IMG/VR virus record: IMGVR_UViG_3300005529_000065
Coordinates: 1-40,906 of that record
Source: a virus
Length of the DNA: 40,906 bases
Direction: 5' to 3' (one strand)
The notes under the pieces are model-generated. The model was not told where the DNA came from. It made no database searches and saw only the letters and a program-made list of their open reading frames with translations. The translations under genes were made by a program, and so were the position numbers. Positions 4,605 through 30,968 of the stretch are shown piece by piece; within the stretch, counting starts at the first letter, position 1; each line of letters opens with the position of its first letter.

Positions 4605-4970
4605 ATGGCTGCAACATACGTGAACGTGTTCGGCTCGTACATCAACGCCACCTCGAACGTGGCCGCTACGGGGACGGTGAAGTTCAAGCCGCGGTTCACG
4701 GGCCCGGCGCAGGACACGTCGGTGACGCCGACGGGTTACGTGGAGCCGGTGGAGATTTCGACGCAACTGGTGAATGGCGGGTTCTCGGTGAACCTGCGGG
4801 CCAGCGACGACTCGACGTTGTCTCCTACGGGTTGGACGTACCGGGTGACGGAGGAGATCACGGGGTTTCCGCGGCGCCAGTACGACATCAATGTGCCGTC
4901 GGCTAACGCCGGGTCTGGTTTGAATCTTGTTGGGGCGACGCAGGTTACGCCGCCGAATCTGGGTCACTAA
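4605..4970 (+). CDS. hypothetical structural protein, beta-rich
   Basis: 121 residues from ATG 4605, preceded by GGGGACGG. The sequence alternates hydrophobic and polar residues (TGTVKFKPRF; YVEPVEISTQLVNGGFSVNL) and looks like a small beta-sandwich, as in tail-fibre N-terminal or head-tail connector modules. No motif gives a specific role. Lies in the late operon 8 bases after the preceding gene. Confidence 0.65.
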   Translation: MAATYVNVFGSYINATSNVAATGTVKFKPRFTGPAQDTSVTPTGYVEPVEISTQLVNGGFSVNLRASDDSTLSPTGWTYRVTEEITGFPRRQYDINVPSANAGSGLNLVGATQVTPPNLGH

Positions 4971-7542: not shown

Positions 7543-9444
7543 ATGCCGGCCATTCTGCCCACTCCGCTACCGGCGAATCTGTCGGGGGCGGGTTCCAGTG
7601 GCTCTTCGGCGGTCATCACTTCCCCGTGGGATGTTGTGATCGGCCCGTACGGGTTCATGTTGAACAACGACCCGAACACTCCTCTGCTGCGGGCTGGCGC
7701 GGATTACCGGTCCCCGTACGTGAACTATTCGGGCGCGCCGGGCGAGCAGGCCCTGGGGTTCTGGTGGCCCCGTACGCAGTACGCGTGGCATGGCGGTGCG
7801 GGTAACCCGACGTTGGATTCGCTGGGTTCGGGTGACACGTCCATTGCTCTGACCCGATTTGACGAGTCTGCGGGTGTGGACGTACTGACGACCCTGTCGC
7901 AGTTCTCGTTGCTGTATGACACGGACTTCATCACGTCGGTGGGTGCTACACCGACGGAGCTGGTGGCGGTGCAGGACCCGACGCTTGGCGCGATTGTGGT
8001 GTGGGGCGACGGGGCGAACCTGAAGTACTACAACGGTTCGACCACCGGCACTTATCAGGCCGTGACGGCGAAGACGATCTGCACCGATGGCGTGAAGGTG
8101 TACGCCGTGGTCGGTTCGCAGGCGATCGGGTACACGTCTTCGACTTCGACGGTGATGTACACGGGCCTGTCGGGTACGGCGTTGATCCGGTACGCAAAGC
8201 AGCGCCTGGTTTTGGCGCAGGGTCAGGCCATGTACGAGCTGTCGCTGTCGGCTTCTTCCGCTTCTTTGCCGTCTGCTTTCTTCACGCATCCGAACGCTAA
8301 CTGGAAGTGGACGGATGTGGCCGCCGGGCCCGGTGCGATCTACGCGTCCGGGTACGCGGGTTCCACGTCTGCGGTGTACATGTTCATCCTGAACACTTCC
8401 ACGGGTGCCCTGCCGGTCCTGTCGAGTGGTATCACTGCGTGTGAGTTGCCGGACGGCGAGCAGGCGCTGTGCTTGAACACGTACTTGAACTTGTTCATCG
8501 GCATCGGTACGTCCGTGGGCCTGCGGGTCAGCAGTTACAACAGCGATAACAGCATCATCCTGGCTCCGTTGACGTTCAACTCTATGGGCCCCGTGTATGA
8601 CATCGCGTCGTGGGACCGGTTCTTCTACACGTCCTGCCAGATGGCCGACAATGTGGACAACTGCGGCCTGATGCGGGTGGACTTGTCGTTCCCGACGGAC
8701 ACGAACCGTTACGCCTACCAGATGGATATCCGGGCGAACAACAGTGCACCCACCGGTTTCTCGGGGGTGACTGGTACGACATCGGCGGTCATCATCCTGA
8801 ACGGCCTGCCAGTGTTCATCGTCCCAGGTGCGGGTTTGTATGCGCAGTCGGCTACGCGCTATGTGCCGACGGGCTATTTGACTAGTTCGAAGATGTATTT
8901 CGGTATGACCGATTACAAGATTTTCGAGCGTGGCTCGTTCACGATGTCCGGCCAGGGCCAAGTGACGATGTCCACGTCCGTGGATTCGACCACTGGTTTC
9001 GTGTCCCGGGCGGTCGGCAATGCGGGGTTGACGTCTCGGGTTGAGGCGAACATCGGCGGTCTCCGCGGTTCGTTCCTCAAGGCGAGGTTCGATTTGCAGC
9101 GACCCACGACTACGCAGACCCCGGTGGTGCTGGGGTATTCGATGCGGGCGTTGCCGTCGCAGGCCCGCGAGGACGCGTGGACGTTGCCGCTGCGCGTGTA
9201 TGACCGGGTGGAGGGTCCGTACGGGGAGACCGTTCACCAGTCGGCGATCAGCGTGGTCCAGGGTATTGCGAACCTTGTGCGGTTCCAGACTCCGGTGATC
9301 TTCCAAACCTTTTTCGGTGAACCGGGCGGGGATTGGCAGACGTTCCTTGTTCAGGTTGAGAATTACGAATTCAAGCAGGCGACCGCCGAAGATGGTTGGG
9401 GCGGCACGCTGACCCTCTCTCTTCGCACGCTCACGGGAGAGTGA
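7543..9444 (+). CDS. large tail protein, beta-rich
   Basis: 633 residues from ATG 7543, with GGGGGTG upstream. Repeated short strands such as LVAVQDPTLGAIVVWGDG and TICTDGVKVYAVVG suggest a beta-propeller in residues about 100-420, followed by a beta-rich C-terminal domain (YEFKQATAEDGWGGTLTLSL). Size and position resemble tail nozzle or stopper proteins of short-tailed phages. No enzymatic motif seen. Confidence 0.6.
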   Translation: MPAILPTPLPANLSGAGSSGSSAVITSPWDVVIGPYGFMLNNDPNTPLLRAGADYRSPYVNYSGAPGEQALGFWWPRTQYAWHGGAGNPTLDSLGSGDTSIALTRFDESAGVDVLTTLSQFSLLYDTDFITSVGATPTELVAVQDPTLGAIVVWGDGANLKYYNGSTTGTYQAVTAKTICTDGVKVYAVVGSQAIGYTSSTSTVMYTGLSGTALIRYAKQRLVLAQGQAMYELSLSASSASLPSAFFTHPNANWKWTDVAAGPGAIYASGYAGSTSAVYMFILNTSTGALPVLSSGITACELPDGEQALCLNTYLNLFIGIGTSVGLRVSSYNSDNSIILAPLTFNSMGPVYDIASWDRFFYTSCQMADNVDNCGLMRVDLSFPTDTNRYAYQMDIRANNSAPTGFSGVTGTTSAVIILNGLPVFIVPGAGLYAQSATRYVPTGYLTSSKMYFGMTDYKIFERGSFTMSGQGQVTMSTSVDSTTGFVSRAVGNAGLTSRVEANIGGLRGSFLKARFDLQRPTTTQTPVVLGYSMRALPSQAREDAWTLPLRVYDRVEGPYGETVHQSAISVVQGIANLVRFQTPVIFQTFFGEPGGDWQTFLVQVENYEFKQATAEDGWGGTLTLSLRTLTGE

Positions 9445-23836: not shown

Positions 23837-24262
23837 ATGCCTAAGCGCACCCGCACCCCAGAAGAGCGTTACTGGGAGAAAGTGGGCATGGGGCCGAATG
23901 GCTGCCACGTCTGGTTGGCTTTCAAAAACAAGCTGGGCTACGGATGGTTCTGGGCGAATGGCCGCCACTGGGCGGCGCATCGATACGCCCTAAAACTGGC
24001 TGGCCGCGAGGTCCCGGACCACTTGGTGGTTGACCACCTCTGTCGCAACCCGAGTTGCGTGCGCCCGGACCACCTTGAGGCCGTCACGGACAAGGTCAAT
24101 ATCCAGCGCGGCCTGGTCCCCAAGACTCACTGCAAGTCCGGAAAGCACGTGCTGGACGTAGACGGCAGAGACCCTTACAACGGCTCTTGCCTTCCCTGTC
24201 GAAAGGAATACAAGATTGAGTGGCAGCGCGCGAATCGGGCGGCGCGACGTGCCGCTCTCTAG
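23837..24262 (+). CDS. HNH homing endonuclease 2
   Basis: 141 residues from ATG 23837. GCHVWLAF...GYGWFW...RYALKLAG is followed by VVDHLCRNPSCVRPDHLEAVT, the HNH core, and C-terminal Cys pairs (HCKSGKH; CLPCRKEYK). The core is nearly the same as in the proteins at 19027 and 30952. It overlaps the metallophosphoesterase gene by 47 bases. Its own copy of the dispersed element may control it separately. Confidence 0.88.
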   Translation: MPKRTRTPEERYWEKVGMGPNGCHVWLAFKNKLGYGWFWANGRHWAAHRYALKLAGREVPDHLVVDHLCRNPSCVRPDHLEAVTDKVNIQRGLVPKTHCKSGKHVLDVDGRDPYNGSCLPCRKEYKIEWQRANRAARRAAL

Positions 24263-25007
24263 GATCTTGGTGCTTCCCGACTCCCAGTTTGGGAGCGAGG
24301 ATCGACGCCTCCACCGCCAATTCATCGCCTTCATATCGACCTACCAACCAGACCGCATTGTCCATGTCGGCGATTTTCTCGACTGCAAAGCGCCCGCGCG
24401 CTGGTCGCGTGACACCGCCGAAGAGTTCGCCCACACCTTGCAGGAGGAGATTGACCGTGGACGTGCGTTTCTGCATGGTGTGCGACAAGTGTTCAGCGGT
24501 CCAGTCGATATCAAGTCAGGCAACCACGACGAGCGGATCGAGGTTTATCTGCGAACCAAAGCGCCAGCACTGCAATCGTTGCGGAGCCTCCGAATTGAGG
24601 CTCTTCTCGGCCTTGATCAATACAATGTCGGATGGCACCGGCAACCCTTCGACGTCGCACCCGGATGGCTCATCTGCCACGGGCACGAAGGGAGTCTCAG
24701 CCGCTACGCGGGTGGAACAGCTATTGGCCTTGCACGAAAGCTGGGAAAATCCGTCGTAACGGGGCACACCCACAGGGCCGGCATCATCTCCGAGTCCTAC
24801 GGGCTCCCCGGAAACATGAAGACCATCACCGGGATGGAGGTCGGCCACGCGATGGACATGAAAAAAGCGGCCTACCTGAACGCCGGAGCGAACTGGCAGA
24901 CCGCTTTCGGGTTGCTGTACGTGGATGGTCACCGGGTCACCCCGACGTTGGTGCCGGTGCACAAGGACGGCTCGTTCACCGTCGAGGGCGAGGTGTTCGG
25001 TGGGTGA
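24216..25007 (+). CDS. calcineurin-like metallophosphoesterase
   Basis: 263 residues from TTG 24216, preceded by AAAGGAA; GTG 24249 is an alternative. All metal-ligand motifs are present: LPDSQFG (Asp22), HVGDFLD (Asp53), SGNHDE (Asn103, His104), CHGHEG and TGHTHR. The family hydrolyses phosphodiesters or phosphomonoesters; phage copies may act on DNA ends or nucleotides. Located near the end of the early operon. Confidence 0.85.
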   Translation: MSGSARIGRRDVPLSRILVLPDSQFGSEDRRLHRQFIAFISTYQPDRIVHVGDFLDCKAPARWSRDTAEEFAHTLQEEIDRGRAFLHGVRQVFSGPVDIKSGNHDERIEVYLRTKAPALQSLRSLRIEALLGLDQYNVGWHRQPFDVAPGWLICHGHEGSLSRYAGGTAIGLARKLGKSVVTGHTHRAGIISESYGLPGNMKTITGMEVGHAMDMKKAAYLNAGANWQTAFGLLYVDGHRVTPTLVPVHKDGSFTVEGEVFGG

Positions 25008-25444: not shown

Positions 25445-25488
25445 AGAACCCCCGCACTCAGGCTCACGGGCCCGGGTACGGGGGTTCT
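25445..25488. terminator. bidirectional terminator between converging operons
   Basis: AGAACCCCCG (25445-25454) and CGGGGGTTCT (25479-25488) form a perfect 10-bp stem between the rightward early operon and the leftward small-gene cluster. Confidence 0.75.
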
Positions 25489-25501: not shown

Positions 25502-25690
25502 TTAAGACCACTTCACGGTCTTGTTGTAGCCGTCACGGACGCGGACCGCGCGCTTAGCCGCGCCCATCGAAACCTCAAGCCGCGCCCGGAACAGGGCCGA
25601 CTGCAGGTCCACCCCATCCGCGTCGAAGCAGCGGACCCAGCGCGTACCGTCATCCGACCGTACGTCCACAGTGTAGTCAGCGCAGTACAT
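25502..25690 (-). CDS. small protein of 62 aa, last gene of leftward cluster
   Basis: ATG at 25690 is preceded by GGAGGGGAAC. The product starts MYCADYTVDVRSDDG and contains SALFRARLEVSMGAAKRAVRV, a strand-strand-helix pattern. Its ribosome-binding site overlaps the 3' strand of stem II of a hammerhead-like RNA (25699-25754), so access to it may depend on ribozyme folding or cleavage. Function unknown. Confidence 0.7.
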   Translation of the reverse strand: MYCADYTVDVRSDDGTRWVRCFDADGVDLQSALFRARLEVSMGAAKRAVRVRDGYNKTVKWS

Positions 25691-25698
25691 GTTCCCCT

Positions 25699-25754
25699 CC
25701 GGCTCATCAGGCCCGGGCTGAGTCCCGGACGACCCCATCACGGGGTTTCGCCAA
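25699..25754 (-). ncRNA. hammerhead ribozyme candidate HHR-2 (type II)
   Basis: Leftward strand, 5' to 3': stem II strand TTGGC (25754-25750); GAAA (25749-25746); stem III A+CCCC / GGGG+T (25746-25742 with 25736-25732) closed by loop GTGAT; cleavage-site C25731; stem I GTCCGGG / CCCGGGC (25730-25724 with 25717-25711, one T-G pair) closed by ACTCAG; CTGATGA (25710-25704); stem II return GCCGG (25703-25699; three Watson-Crick and two G-T pairs). All invariant core bases are present. It starts at the first base after the upstream gene's stop and ends in the downstream ribosome-binding site. Confidence 0.88.
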
Positions 25755-26015
25755 TCAACGCGCTGCAGGCTGCAGGAAACCCGCGCCGTGATTCCGGCCA
25801 CCACACTCACAATCACACGACGGCCCGACCGCCCCAGTGCACTTCGAACTGCACTTCGTCTCAGACACACGACCCTGCACCGCCGACATACGCATACGCG
25901 CCGCGCCACACGAGCAGTACTGGTTCTTCGGGTTGTTGTTCTCGCCCGGCTCCAAGTCCAGCGCGAACGGGTGACCGTTCCTGCACTTACCAACCCAGCG
26001 GGTCAAGGTGACCAT
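25755..26015 (-). CDS. Cys-rich small protein conserved in actinophages
   Basis: 86 residues from ATG 26015, with TGAGGGGG upstream. VGKCRNGHPFALDLEPG, QYCSCGAARM, VSETKCSSKCTGAVGPSCD and CECGGRNHG give nine Cys in pairs, a probable multi-zinc fold. The KC..KCTGA.GPSCDC.CGG.NHG block is one I have seen repeatedly in actinobacteriophage early regions; function is unknown. A hammerhead-like RNA (26042-26096) and a copy of the dispersed element lie in its leader. Confidence 0.75.
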   Translation of the reverse strand: MVTLTRWVGKCRNGHPFALDLEPGENNNPKNQYCSCGAARMRMSAVQGRVSETKCSSKCTGAVGPSCDCECGGRNHGAGFLQPAAR

Positions 26016-26138: not shown

Positions 26139-26231
26139 TCACCACGGCAACACCCGACCACCAGGTGTCCGAGTGTTCACCGGCTCAACCGGCCGACGAA
26201 CCGGCCTACGCGTGATCTGAACCCGCTTCAC
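26139..26231 (-). CDS. possible 30-aa basic peptide
   Basis: GTG at 26231 overlaps the preceding stop by 4 bases (GTGA). The product KRVQITRRPVRRPVEPV... is basic and Pro-rich, ending GGRVLPW. The coupling favours a real gene; size and lack of known relatives make it uncertain. Confidence 0.4.
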   Translation of the reverse strand: MKRVQITRRPVRRPVEPVNTRTPGGRVLPW

Positions 26232-26380
26232 CGCGCCACCCCCATCTCCCGGTAGAGCTGGGCCACCAGATAGGCCGCGTGCTCCTGCACGTCCGAACGA
26301 ACCTCGTCCCGGCCCACCCCGTACTCGCCCATCCACGCCTCAGCGTCGACATCGACGGTGAAACTGATCCTGACCTTCAT
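26228..26380 (-). CDS. small protein of 50 aa
   Basis: ATG at 26380 follows GGAGGGAGGCGTC, a strong site. Product MKVRISFTVDVDAEAWMGEYG then EVRSDVQEHAAYLVAQLYRE: a beta strand followed by an amphipathic helix, compatible with a ribbon-helix-helix DNA-binding fold, though that is not certain. Its leader has plain hairpins but no hammerhead core. Confidence 0.65.
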   Translation of the reverse strand: MKVRISFTVDVDAEAWMGEYGVGRDEVRSDVQEHAAYLVAQLYREMGVAR

Positions 26381-26465
26381 GACGCCTCCCTCCACTCTCA
26401 ACCCACACGGCGTGTGGACCCAGAGCAGAGGACGGGCCTTTCGGCCCGCCCCGGCTGCACAACGA

Positions 26466-26588
26466 CTACTCGTCAGCGGAAAACACGCCCTGCGGGCACC
26501 GACACATCTCGTGATCCGCATGCGCGCATTCACCACACAACACACACACGTACAGGCTCATGCACGACCCATAGTGCTCAGCGTCCAT
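26466..26588 (-). CDS. small Cys/His protein of 40 aa, first gene of leftward cluster
   Basis: ATG at 26588 with GGGAGGG upstream. MDAEHYGSCMSLYVCVLCGE and CAHADHEMCRC give a zinc-finger-like Cys/His set in 40 residues. The ribosome-binding site lies in stem-loop II, and the first base of the ATG in stem III, of the hammerhead-like RNA HHR-3. This is the clearest sign that translation of this gene is tied to ribozyme structure. Function unknown. Confidence 0.7.
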   Translation of the reverse strand: MDAEHYGSCMSLYVCVLCGECAHADHEMCRCPQGVFSADE

Positions 26589-26640
26589 GGTTTCGCCCTC
26601 CCATTGGGCTCATCAGTCCGCGCGGGATACGCGGAGACCA
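26588..26640 (-). ncRNA. hammerhead ribozyme candidate HHR-3 (type III)
   Basis: Leftward strand, 5' to 3': stem III strand TGGT (26640-26637); cleavage-site C26636; stem I TCCGCG / CGCGGA (26635-26630 with 26622-26617), loop TATCCCG; CTGATGA (26616-26610); stem II GCCC / GGGC (26609-26606 with 26598-26595), loop AATGGGA; GAAA (26594-26591); stem III return A+CCA (26591-26588, 4 bp). Loop I (TCCC) and loop II (GGGA) are complementary, as in loop-loop contacts of fast natural hammerheads. The GGGA also belongs to the ribosome-binding site, and base 26588 is the A of the start codon. Confidence 0.9.
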
Positions 26641-27722: not shown

Positions 27723-27905
27723 ATGTCCCGTTGGGATTGCCGTGGGTGCGGTGGACCGCTGGTGACGGCGGAGAACGGGACGGGCATGTACTGCCCGGAC
27801 TTGACGTGTCCGACGGGGAACCGTCAGGCCCGCAGGTTGGCTCGGGCTGGTCGGTGGGCGGACGAGAGGGTTGACCCGGATGAGTGGTTCTACGGCGACG
27901 ACTGA
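27723..27905 (+). CDS. small zinc-ribbon protein, first late gene
   Basis: 60 residues from ATG 27723, with CAGGTGGAG upstream. WDCRGCGGPL then MYCPDLTCPTG is a two-knuckle zinc ribbon; the C-terminus is acidic (DPDEWFYGDD). The following gene also has Cys pairs. Role unknown; late regulator or packaging accessory possible. Confidence 0.65.
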   Translation: MSRWDCRGCGGPLVTAENGTGMYCPDLTCPTGNRQARRLARAGRWADERVDPDEWFYGDD

Positions 27906-28410
27906 GTGCGCTTGGTGCCGGGGGCGGATGAAGCCGCGTACCGGTAAGCGGTTCTGTTCGGAGGCGCACAAGAAGGCGGCTCAGCGGGCGACGGCGGTTG
28001 TGCTGCACGCGATCCGGGAGGGCTGGTGCGCGGAGTGCGGCGCCCGGTTCGAGCAGGCTGGTCCGGGTCGGCCGCGGGTGCGTTGTGGCGCGCCGCAGTG
28101 CGAGCAGGCCCGGCAGCGCCGGCGGAACGAGTCGGTGGAGGAGATGCACCGGCAGCAGTTCGCGGAGTTCATGGTGCAGATGGTCGATGCTGATGAGGAT
28201 GGCGGCGAGGACTGGACTGCTCCGGGTGGGTTCCGGTTCGAGCAGCCGGCTCCGCGCGCCCGGCTTGGTCGGGCGGATGGCGGGCACGATATTGACCCGC
28301 GGTTTGGTGATTGGGACTGGCCGCTCTTTGTGAGCGAGTTCGGTGTTGCGGGGGATGAAGTTGGCCAGACGTATCCGCTGGCTGGTGTGACGCTCGGCGC
28401 GGGCCTCTGA
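27880..28410 (+). CDS. zinc-finger protein upstream of terminase
   Basis: 176 residues from ATG 27880 (GAGAGGG 9 bases upstream). CAWCRGRMKPRTGKRFCSEA is a treble-clef-like finger; CAECGARF...RCGAPQCEQ is a second. The C-terminal half is acidic. Two zinc modules and position before terminase suggest a DNA-binding packaging or regulatory protein, but no HNH catalytic residues are seen. Confidence 0.6.
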   Translation: MSGSTATTECAWCRGRMKPRTGKRFCSEAHKKAAQRATAVVLHAIREGWCAECGARFEQAGPGRPRVRCGAPQCEQARQRRRNESVEEMHRQQFAEFMVQMVDADEDGGEDWTAPGGFRFEQPAPRARLGRADGGHDIDPRFGDWDWPLFVSEFGVAGDEVGQTYPLAGVTLGAGL

Positions 28411-29030: not shown

Positions 29031-29054
29031 TTAGACAGAAGGGCGGTGGTCCCC

Positions 29055-30968
29055 GTGGCTGATGCGACGCCCGGGGGCCGCCCCCGTCGTAACACTGGCG
29101 GTCGCCAGTCGGTGACCCGTGAGACTTCCGGGCGCGTGACGTCCGACGTTGCGAAGCAGATCATCCTGGAGCGCCTGTCGCTCGGCGAGACTGTGATTCC
29201 CGCGGCCCGTGCGGCGGGTCGTACCCGCAAGGGTTACGAGTACATGCGTAGCCAGGACAGGGTGTTCGCGGAGCAGTGCGACATCATCCTGCAGCGGCGC
29301 GCTGGGTCGGTCACGTATGACTGCCCGGACTTCCCGGAGTTCTGCGCAGAGTTCCTCCATCAGCCACTGTTCGAGCACCAGCTCCGGTGGTACGACATTC
29401 TTTGCGGCGAGGAGCCGCGGTCGCTGCACCCCAGCATGCGCTGGGAGCCGGGCGACACGTCCATGCTTCTGTTCAACGTCCCGCCGGGCTTCGCGAAGTC
29501 GACGACGTTGACGGTGAACTACACGGTGTGGCGTATCTGCCGTGACCCGAACGTGCGGATCGTGATCGTGTCCGCGACGGAGAAGATGGCGAAGAAGTTC
29601 CTGTACGCCGTGAAGCAGCGGCTCATGAATCCCGCCTACTCCGACCTGCAGCGCCGGTTCGGCCCGGATGGTGGGTTCCGCGCCACGGCCGAGTCGTGGA
29701 CCGCTACGGAGATCTACCTGGGCGGTAAGGACGACGGCGAGAAGGACCCGACCGTTCAGGCTATCGGTATGGGTGGGCAGATTTACGGTGCCCGCGCGGA
29801 CATCATCATCGTGGACGACGCGGTGCTGTTGAAGAACGCGCACCAGTGGGAGGACCAAATTGACTGGCTCACCCAGGACGTGGTTACTCGACTTCCAGAG
29901 GCTGACCCGGATGCCAAACTTCTTGTCGTCGGCACGCGGGTGGGCCCGGTTGACCTCTACCAGAAACTTCGTGATGAGTTTCGAGATGAGGACGACCGCG
30001 CAGTCTTCACCTACTTCGCTCAGCCTGCCGTGCTGGAGTACGCCGACGACCCTAGCGATTGGGTCAGTCTTTGGCCCGAGACGGTAGACCGGGACGGGGT
30101 GGTCACCCCGAAGTGGCCCGGCCGCGCGCTGAAGTCCCGGCGGGACAAGGTGCGACCCGGCACGTGGGCTCTCGTGTACCAGCAGCAAGACGTCGAACTG
30201 AACGGTGTGTTTGATGAGAAGCTTGTTCGCGCGAGCATTCAGGAATCCCGGCGCCCCGGGCTGCTCTTGCCGATGGCCGAGCGGGCTAAGGGCATGCAGG
30301 GCCTGTATGTCGTTGCAGGCCTGGACCCTGCTGCTGCTGGTTTCACTGCTGCTGTGGTGCTCGGCGTCGATAGGGATAGTCGTAAGATCTATCTTCTAGA
30401 CGCCTTCAACAAGGCTGACCAGTCGGCATCCCAGTTGCGAGAACTCATCAAGACGTGGGCGATCCGCTACGAGATCAAAGAGTTCGTGGTCGAGCAGAAC
30501 GCGTTCCAGCGTTTCCTCGTTCAGGACGACGATATCCGCACATTCCTGTTCGCCCGGGGTTGTGTGCTTCGTGGGCACCACACGCATCGTGGGAACAAGA
30601 ATGACCCGGACTTCGGCGTTGCCTCGATGGCGCTCCTGTTTGACCCGCAGCCCGACGGAAAGCCCACGCTTCTACTGCCCAACGCTAACGCTGCGAACGG
30701 CGCGGTGTCACGGTTGGTGGAACAATTGATCGTGTGGCAGCCGCAGATGAAGGTTACTTCGGCGGGGCAGACCGACTTGGTTATGGCGCTTTGGTTTGCC
30801 ACGCTGCGGGCGCGTAAGTTCATCTTCGACGCCCCGTTCCCGCAGCGTAGTCACATGCCGAATCAGTTCCTTTCTCGTGGGCGCACCAACCGTGAGCGCA
30901 CGACTATCAACTTGCACGACTATGCGGTGCAGTTGGAGATGGAGAAAGCGTATGGCCGTTCGGTCTAG
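29055..30968 (+). CDS. terL: terminase large subunit with N-terminal HTH
   Basis: 637 residues if GTG 29055 is used (AGAAGGG 11 bases upstream; GTG 29046 is alternative). Positions here count from 29046. Residues about 35-80 form an HTH like small terminases (QIILERLSLGETVIPAARAA). ATPase: Walker A PPGFAKST (146-153), coupling VSAT (175-178), Walker B IIIVDD (253-258), VVGTR (294-298). Nuclease: AGLDPAAAG (Asp427) and later FVVEQNAF. It pumps and cuts DNA at the portal. No separate small-terminase gene is evident. Confidence 0.92.
   Translation: MADATPGGRPRRNTGGRQSVTRETSGRVTSDVAKQIILERLSLGETVIPAARAAGRTRKGYEYMRSQDRVFAEQCDIILQRRAGSVTYDCPDFPEFCAEFLHQPLFEHQLRWYDILCGEEPRSLHPSMRWEPGDTSMLLFNVPPGFAKSTTLTVNYTVWRICRDPNVRIVIVSATEKMAKKFLYAVKQRLMNPAYSDLQRRFGPDGGFRATAESWTATEIYLGGKDDGEKDPTVQAIGMGGQIYGARADIIIVDDAVLLKNAHQWEDQIDWLTQDVVTRLPEADPDAKLLVVGTRVGPVDLYQKLRDEFRDEDDRAVFTYFAQPAVLEYADDPSDWVSLWPETVDRDGVVTPKWPGRALKSRRDKVRPGTWALVYQQQDVELNGVFDEKLVRASIQESRRPGLLLPMAERAKGMQGLYVVAGLDPAAAGFTAAVVLGVDRDSRKIYLLDAFNKADQSASQLRELIKTWAIRYEIKEFVVEQNAFQRFLVQDDDIRTFLFARGCVLRGHHTHRGNKNDPDFGVASMALLFDPQPDGKPTLLLPNANAANGAVSRLVEQLIVWQPQMKVTSAGQTDLVMALWFATLRARKFIFDAPFPQRSHMPNQFLSRGRTNRERTTINLHDYAVQLEMEKAYGRSV

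Follow-up and report, generated by a model that had tools for sequence, protein, structure and literature searches.

Type II hammerhead ribozymes were described by Perreault et al. in 2011, together with a pseudoknot between loop I and a tail. The same study found clusters of hammerheads flanking individual prophage genes (a triple array in A. tumefaciens, and clusters in C. scindens and A. caulinodans), reported self-cleavage of such clusters in vitro and in E. coli, the latter including the A. tumefaciens triple array, and already proposed processing into single-gene mRNAs (PMC3088659). A 2017 review linked prokaryotic hammerheads to phages and treated their role as an open question (PMC6155905). 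Here we describe a further array, on a viral DNA of 40,906 nucleotides (IMG/VR record IMGVR_UViG_3300005529_000065, positions 1 to 40,906; this whole stretch is referred to as the window), in which three hammerheads lie in a minus-strand operon of tiny genes and probably process it into short mRNAs. The motif, its clustering and the idea of processing have been known since 2011; what is new is the additional array. Like the prophage clusters (PMC3088659), it has several hammerheads, apparently co-transcribed in the window, around individual small genes; unlike them, it belongs to another phage with other genes, and it adds a mixed array of two type II and one type III hammerheads. We did not find the layout of stop codon, ribozyme, leader and start codon, or the arrays of R4-like phages described below, in the open-licence literature searched, and we claim no priority for either.

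Three hammerheads on the minus strand

The ribozymes, in minus-strand order, are:

26588..26640, minus strand: type III hammerhead, predicted cut after C26636, 35.1 bits
26035..26096, minus strand: ribozyme b, type II hammerhead with tail (motif 26096-26042), predicted cut after C26075
25699..25754, minus strand: ribozyme a, type II hammerhead, cut predicted from the sequence and searches between 25731 and 25730 (after C25731)

A permissive Rfam search and an independent structural scan both found exactly these three hammerheads in the window, co-oriented, within ~1 kb and around three gene blocks. The original prediction, made from the letters of the window alone, had reported only ribozyme a, without naming its strand; it was thus incomplete, since both copy b and the type III copy were missed. 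Rfam gathering scores are 37 bits for type II (RF02276) and 48.5 bits for type III (RF00008); these are curated search thresholds, not structural features. At the gathering score, Rfam returned only a tRNA from the whole window, hence the use of the permissive search and the structural scan.

Ribozyme a reads, 5′ to 3′ from 25754 down to 25699, UUGGC GAAA CCCC GUGAU GGGG UC^GUCCGGG ACUCAG CCCGGGC CUGAUGA GCCGG. As predicted, no core element of a type II hammerhead is missing. Copies a and b both share with RF02276 the conserved core (CUGAUGA, GAAA and, at the cleavage position, UH), an open stem II, loops closing stems I and III, and the phage setting. Stems I, II and III of ribozyme a have 7, 3-5 and 5-6 bp. 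Of the five pairs originally given for stem II, the outer two are G.U, so a conventional stem II of 3 bp, GGC/GCC, is the safer reading. The claim that the motif fills the gap between two open reading frames (ORFs) was borne out: the TGA (25757-25755) of an 86-aa ORF immediately precedes ribozyme a, and 8 nt separate the end of the ribozyme from the ATG (25690) of a 62-aa ORF. A covariance-model search (cmscan) matched it to Hammerhead_II at 34.2 bits (E = 0.0024 for the whole window), a hit that nonetheless falls below the gathering score.

Ribozyme b scored 34.7 bits with Hammerhead_II in the permissive search, likewise under 37, and has stems I, II and III of 9, 3 and 5 bp. It begins ~40 nt after the stop of the upstream ORF. 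The loop I-tail pseudoknot, which is frequent in RF02276 though not present in every member, is clear in this copy, with five perfect pairs between UGGCU in loop I (26065-26061) and AGCCA in the tail (26039-26035); copy a has a weak candidate. Copy a also departs from the family in carrying a Shine-Dalgarno (SD) sequence directly at stem II. The type III copy has all core elements and three stems (I, II and III of 7, 4 and 4 bp) and, like RF00008, is open at stem III; it differs from that family in its score (35.1 versus 48.5 bits) and in having the start codon where stem III ends. It contains GGGAGGG (26602-26596), and its 3′ end is the A of the ATG of a 40-aa ORF.

The cmscan E values of the three hammerheads ranged from 0.0005 to 0.0024 for the whole window. 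The structural scan is expected to find 0.02 motifs by chance in a first-order Markov window of 40.9 kb, and two or more hammerheads were reached in none of 400 simulated windows. The minimum free energy (MFE) of ribozyme a was not better than that of shuffled sequence (z = -0.17), and MFE z-scores were uninformative for the hammerhead regions. A search of viral contigs for a near-exact pattern of ribozyme a gave no match.

Hammerhead arrays in other phages

The same layout was observed in five Streptomyces phages that belong to or resemble the R4-like phages (R4, ELB20, Hank144, Animus and Loofah). Whole-genome Rfam searches found 8-11 type II hammerheads per genome, confined to the right-hand end, where they share the coding strand with the leftward genes, and none elsewhere. 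By the deposited annotation of these five phages, 33 of the 39 gaps of at least 60 nt hold a type II hammerhead, as against 3 of 87 narrower junctions. As in the window, co-oriented hammerheads stand between small genes, with a stop close by and a start shortly after. In contrast to the window, the R4-like arrays have more copies, nearly all above the gathering score, and are of type II only; the phages are not close relatives of the virus studied here. From gene content and position we assume that the operon carrying these hammerheads is expressed early.

In R4 itself (L329, NC_019414.1) the annotated genes gp60.1, gp67.1 and gp75.1 (2435-2518, 4798-4890 and 7746-7847) consist almost wholly of hammerheads, at 46-54 bits, and gp72, gp76 and gp81 are annotated with 5′ ends that include hammerhead sequence; the gaps of ELB20 that match the three genes are unannotated. 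These R4 genes and 5′ ends are probably mis-annotations, an indication that annotation can take ribozymes for genes or for the beginnings of genes. R4 is a classic Streptomyces phage, so the long-debated purpose of such arrays becomes testable in a laboratory phage or a reporter. The R4 hammerheads at 2449-2513, 4817-4881 and 7769-7833 carry one additional base where CUGAUGA or CUGACGA would otherwise adjoin the 3′ strand of stem II (CUGAUGAUGGC); several R4 copies have this core variant.

We also examined type II hammerheads in viral contigs, where a scan with a core-only pattern supplied most of 161 unique matches (this and the following counts are among the matches or loci listed). Both stems were present in 99 of the 161 core-only matches, compared with 0.9 expected. 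Stem positions are occupied by five or six pair types each, and pairing is lost when the register is slid; covariation in these other viral hammerheads is strong. In a set of 156 non-redundant copies, which is not a random sample because most loci were retrieved by similar core patterns, a start codon preceded by an SD sequence lies 20-29 nt after stem II in 86 (control ~3%), and an ORF stop lies within -10..+9 nt of the motif in 101 (control ~10%). Controls were random positions in the same loci, and starts and stops are simple ORF calls rather than curated genes. Only two of the 156 have their start codon as close as 0-9 nt to stem II, which makes the close spacing of ribozyme a unusual. Two or more hammerheads occur in 45 loci, and in each of these they share one strand.

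Relatives of the window identified by their TerL (~44% identity) carry type II hammerheads, supported in part by Rfam, on the strand opposite TerL and 1.1-1.7 kb upstream of it. Most of them begin at or a few bases from the upstream stop codon and are followed 23-36 nt after stem II by an ATG with a clear SD sequence, and the differences between their stems are compensatory. A search for TerL in genome contigs gave one distant match, on a MAG contig. The viral contigs L319 (3858-5010), L175, L095, L099 and L161 also have arrays, with four to seven hammerheads in one orientation; that of L319 includes one type III and three type I hammerheads.

Probable processing of the operon and competing explanations

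We consider it probable that the hammerheads of the window process its small operon into short mRNAs, uncoupling neighbouring genes and giving each its own protected ends. Each hammerhead would cut the nascent polycistronic RNA as it is transcribed. Cuts at 26636, 26075 and 25731 would yield an RNA of ~561 nt with the 40-, 50- and 30-aa ORFs, one of 344 nt with the 86-aa ORF and one of ~285 nt with the 62-aa ORF. The original prediction had expected cleavage to separate the last two cistrons, an expectation that the comparative gene-position data back. A downstream mRNA would begin with a 5′-OH and a stable stem I hairpin, the ribosome-binding site lying further 3′, and the RNA upstream of a type II cut would end in the stem III hairpin with a 2′,3′-cyclic phosphate. 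Hairpin ends protect RNA in bacterial RNA decay and in ribozyme insulators such as RiboJ; the hammerheads of the window may stabilize RNA and affect expression likewise, as a natural counterpart of such insulators. A broader proposal is more tentative, and we regard it as possible but doubtful: hammerhead punctuation may be general in some phage early operons, where a module of stop, ribozyme, short leader and start in nearly every gap would give each gene a separate hairpin-ended mRNA, and the window may extend it, two of its ribozymes containing or touching a ribosome-binding site, which would set cleavage in competition with the start of translation.

Several observations weigh against processing. 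None of the three hammerheads reaches its Rfam gathering cut-off, and the only candidate for a loop I-tail pseudoknot in ribozyme a is CUC/GAG, of 3 bp. A search for a homologue of the junction between the 86-aa and 62-aa ORFs found none, so this locus offers no comparison for covariation, and searches of phages and viral contigs gave no homologue of the 62-aa protein. No hammerhead matched in the nearest TerL relatives, L003 and L004, or was found in named phages whose TerL or metallophosphoesterase genes are related. In addition, the gap between the 40-aa and 50-aa ORFs holds a strong hairpin and no hammerhead.

The placement of ribosome-binding sites raises the question of a translational switch, in which the uncut ribozyme would keep the following gene's ribosome-binding site or start codon out of reach until cleavage releases it. 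In ribozyme a, GGAGGGG adjoins stem II and its GAG could pair with CUC of loop I; the type III copy carries its SD sequence in loop and stem II and pairs the A of the ATG in stem III. By ViennaRNA partition function, which leaves the tertiary hammerhead fold outside the model and is therefore weak evidence either way, accessibility of the SD sequence is predicted to rise upon cleavage for the type III copy (0.32 to 0.57), but is low in both states for ribozyme b (0.40 and 0.31) and flat for ribozyme a, where the mean unpaired probability of GGAGGGG is 0.69 before and 0.70 after cleavage. The last result does not support the original suggestion that the fold of ribozyme a masks the second ribosome-binding site. 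Moreover, the 3′ product retains the loop I hairpin, whose pairing with the SD sequence would thus outlast cleavage, and most viral type II copies have their start codon 20-29 nt past stem II, which rules masking out as the general role. We therefore consider a switch unlikely. The proximity of stop codons suggests another possibility, that a ribosome reaching the end of the upstream ORF blocks stem II and GAAA, which would restrict cleavage to times when the upstream gene is not being translated. The stops that abut the ribozyme in 101 of the 156 viral copies, and the TGA that touches stem II of ribozyme a, fit this coupling. However, genome compaction alone would yield the same adjacency, other junctions in the R4-like phages mostly overlapping or lying a few bases apart, and ribozyme b is ~40 nt from the upstream stop; coupling of this kind seems to us quite improbable.

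Two explanations would deny the hammerheads a role in gene expression. They could be neutral or selfish remnants, as their scores under the Rfam cut-offs and the absence of matches in the nearest relatives examined would allow. Yet the cores of all three are intact, position and orientation are strict in many phages, and the ribozymes are kept in otherwise nearly gapless operons, which leaves this explanation slightly less credible still than translational coupling. Mere chance likeness to the motif, with which the MFE values no better than those of shuffled sequence would agree, is extremely improbable against three complete motifs within 1 kb of one strand, given the simulations and E values above.

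The operon and its surroundings

The minus-strand run sits between plus-strand genes, and its order is type III ribozyme, 40-, 50- and 30-aa ORFs, ribozyme b, 86-aa ORF, ribozyme a, 62-aa ORF and a terminator-like hairpin:

26466..26588, minus strand: 40-aa Cys-rich ORF, beginning where the type III ribozyme ends; no family match reached the cut-off
26228..26380, minus strand: 50-aa ORF, phrog_2869 (function unknown), with homologues in Mycobacterium, Gordonia and Arthrobacter phages
26139..26231, minus strand: 30-aa ORF, opening with a GTG that overlaps the stop codon of the 50-aa ORF
25755..26015, minus strand: 86-aa Cys-rich ORF, phrog_6842 (function unknown), between ribozymes b and a; SD sequence GAGGGGG at 26028-26022
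25502..25690, minus strand: 62-aa ORF; SD sequence GGAGGGG at 25700-25694 adjoins or overlaps stem II of ribozyme a
25446..25487, minus strand: G+C-rich hairpin followed by a weak T run, after the last ORF
24216-25007, plus strand: metallophosphoesterase gene, flanking
27871-28410, plus strand: HNH-like gene, flanking
29046-30968, plus strand: TerL gene, flanking

The hairpin at 25446..25487, seen in the sequence and matched in part by a consensus scan, is likely the operon terminator. A consensus scan for a sigma-70-type promoter of the minus-strand operon found no promoter-like site. We also considered the region of ribozyme a as coding, in frame with the 62-aa ORF. The frame is open, yet the ATG with a good SD sequence lies downstream and the hammerhead core is intact, and this candidate was rejected; base composition by codon position in that frame does not decide on coding.

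Five phages with homologues of the 86-aa or 50-aa proteins were examined and had no type II hammerhead; thus, as far as tested, the ribozymes do not travel with these genes. Between the 40-aa and 50-aa ORFs (26380-26466, minus strand) lie very stable adjoining hairpins, with -46.7 kcal/mol for 87 nt. A tRNA gene (51.4 bits) is located near the left end of the window, at 600-670 on the plus strand.
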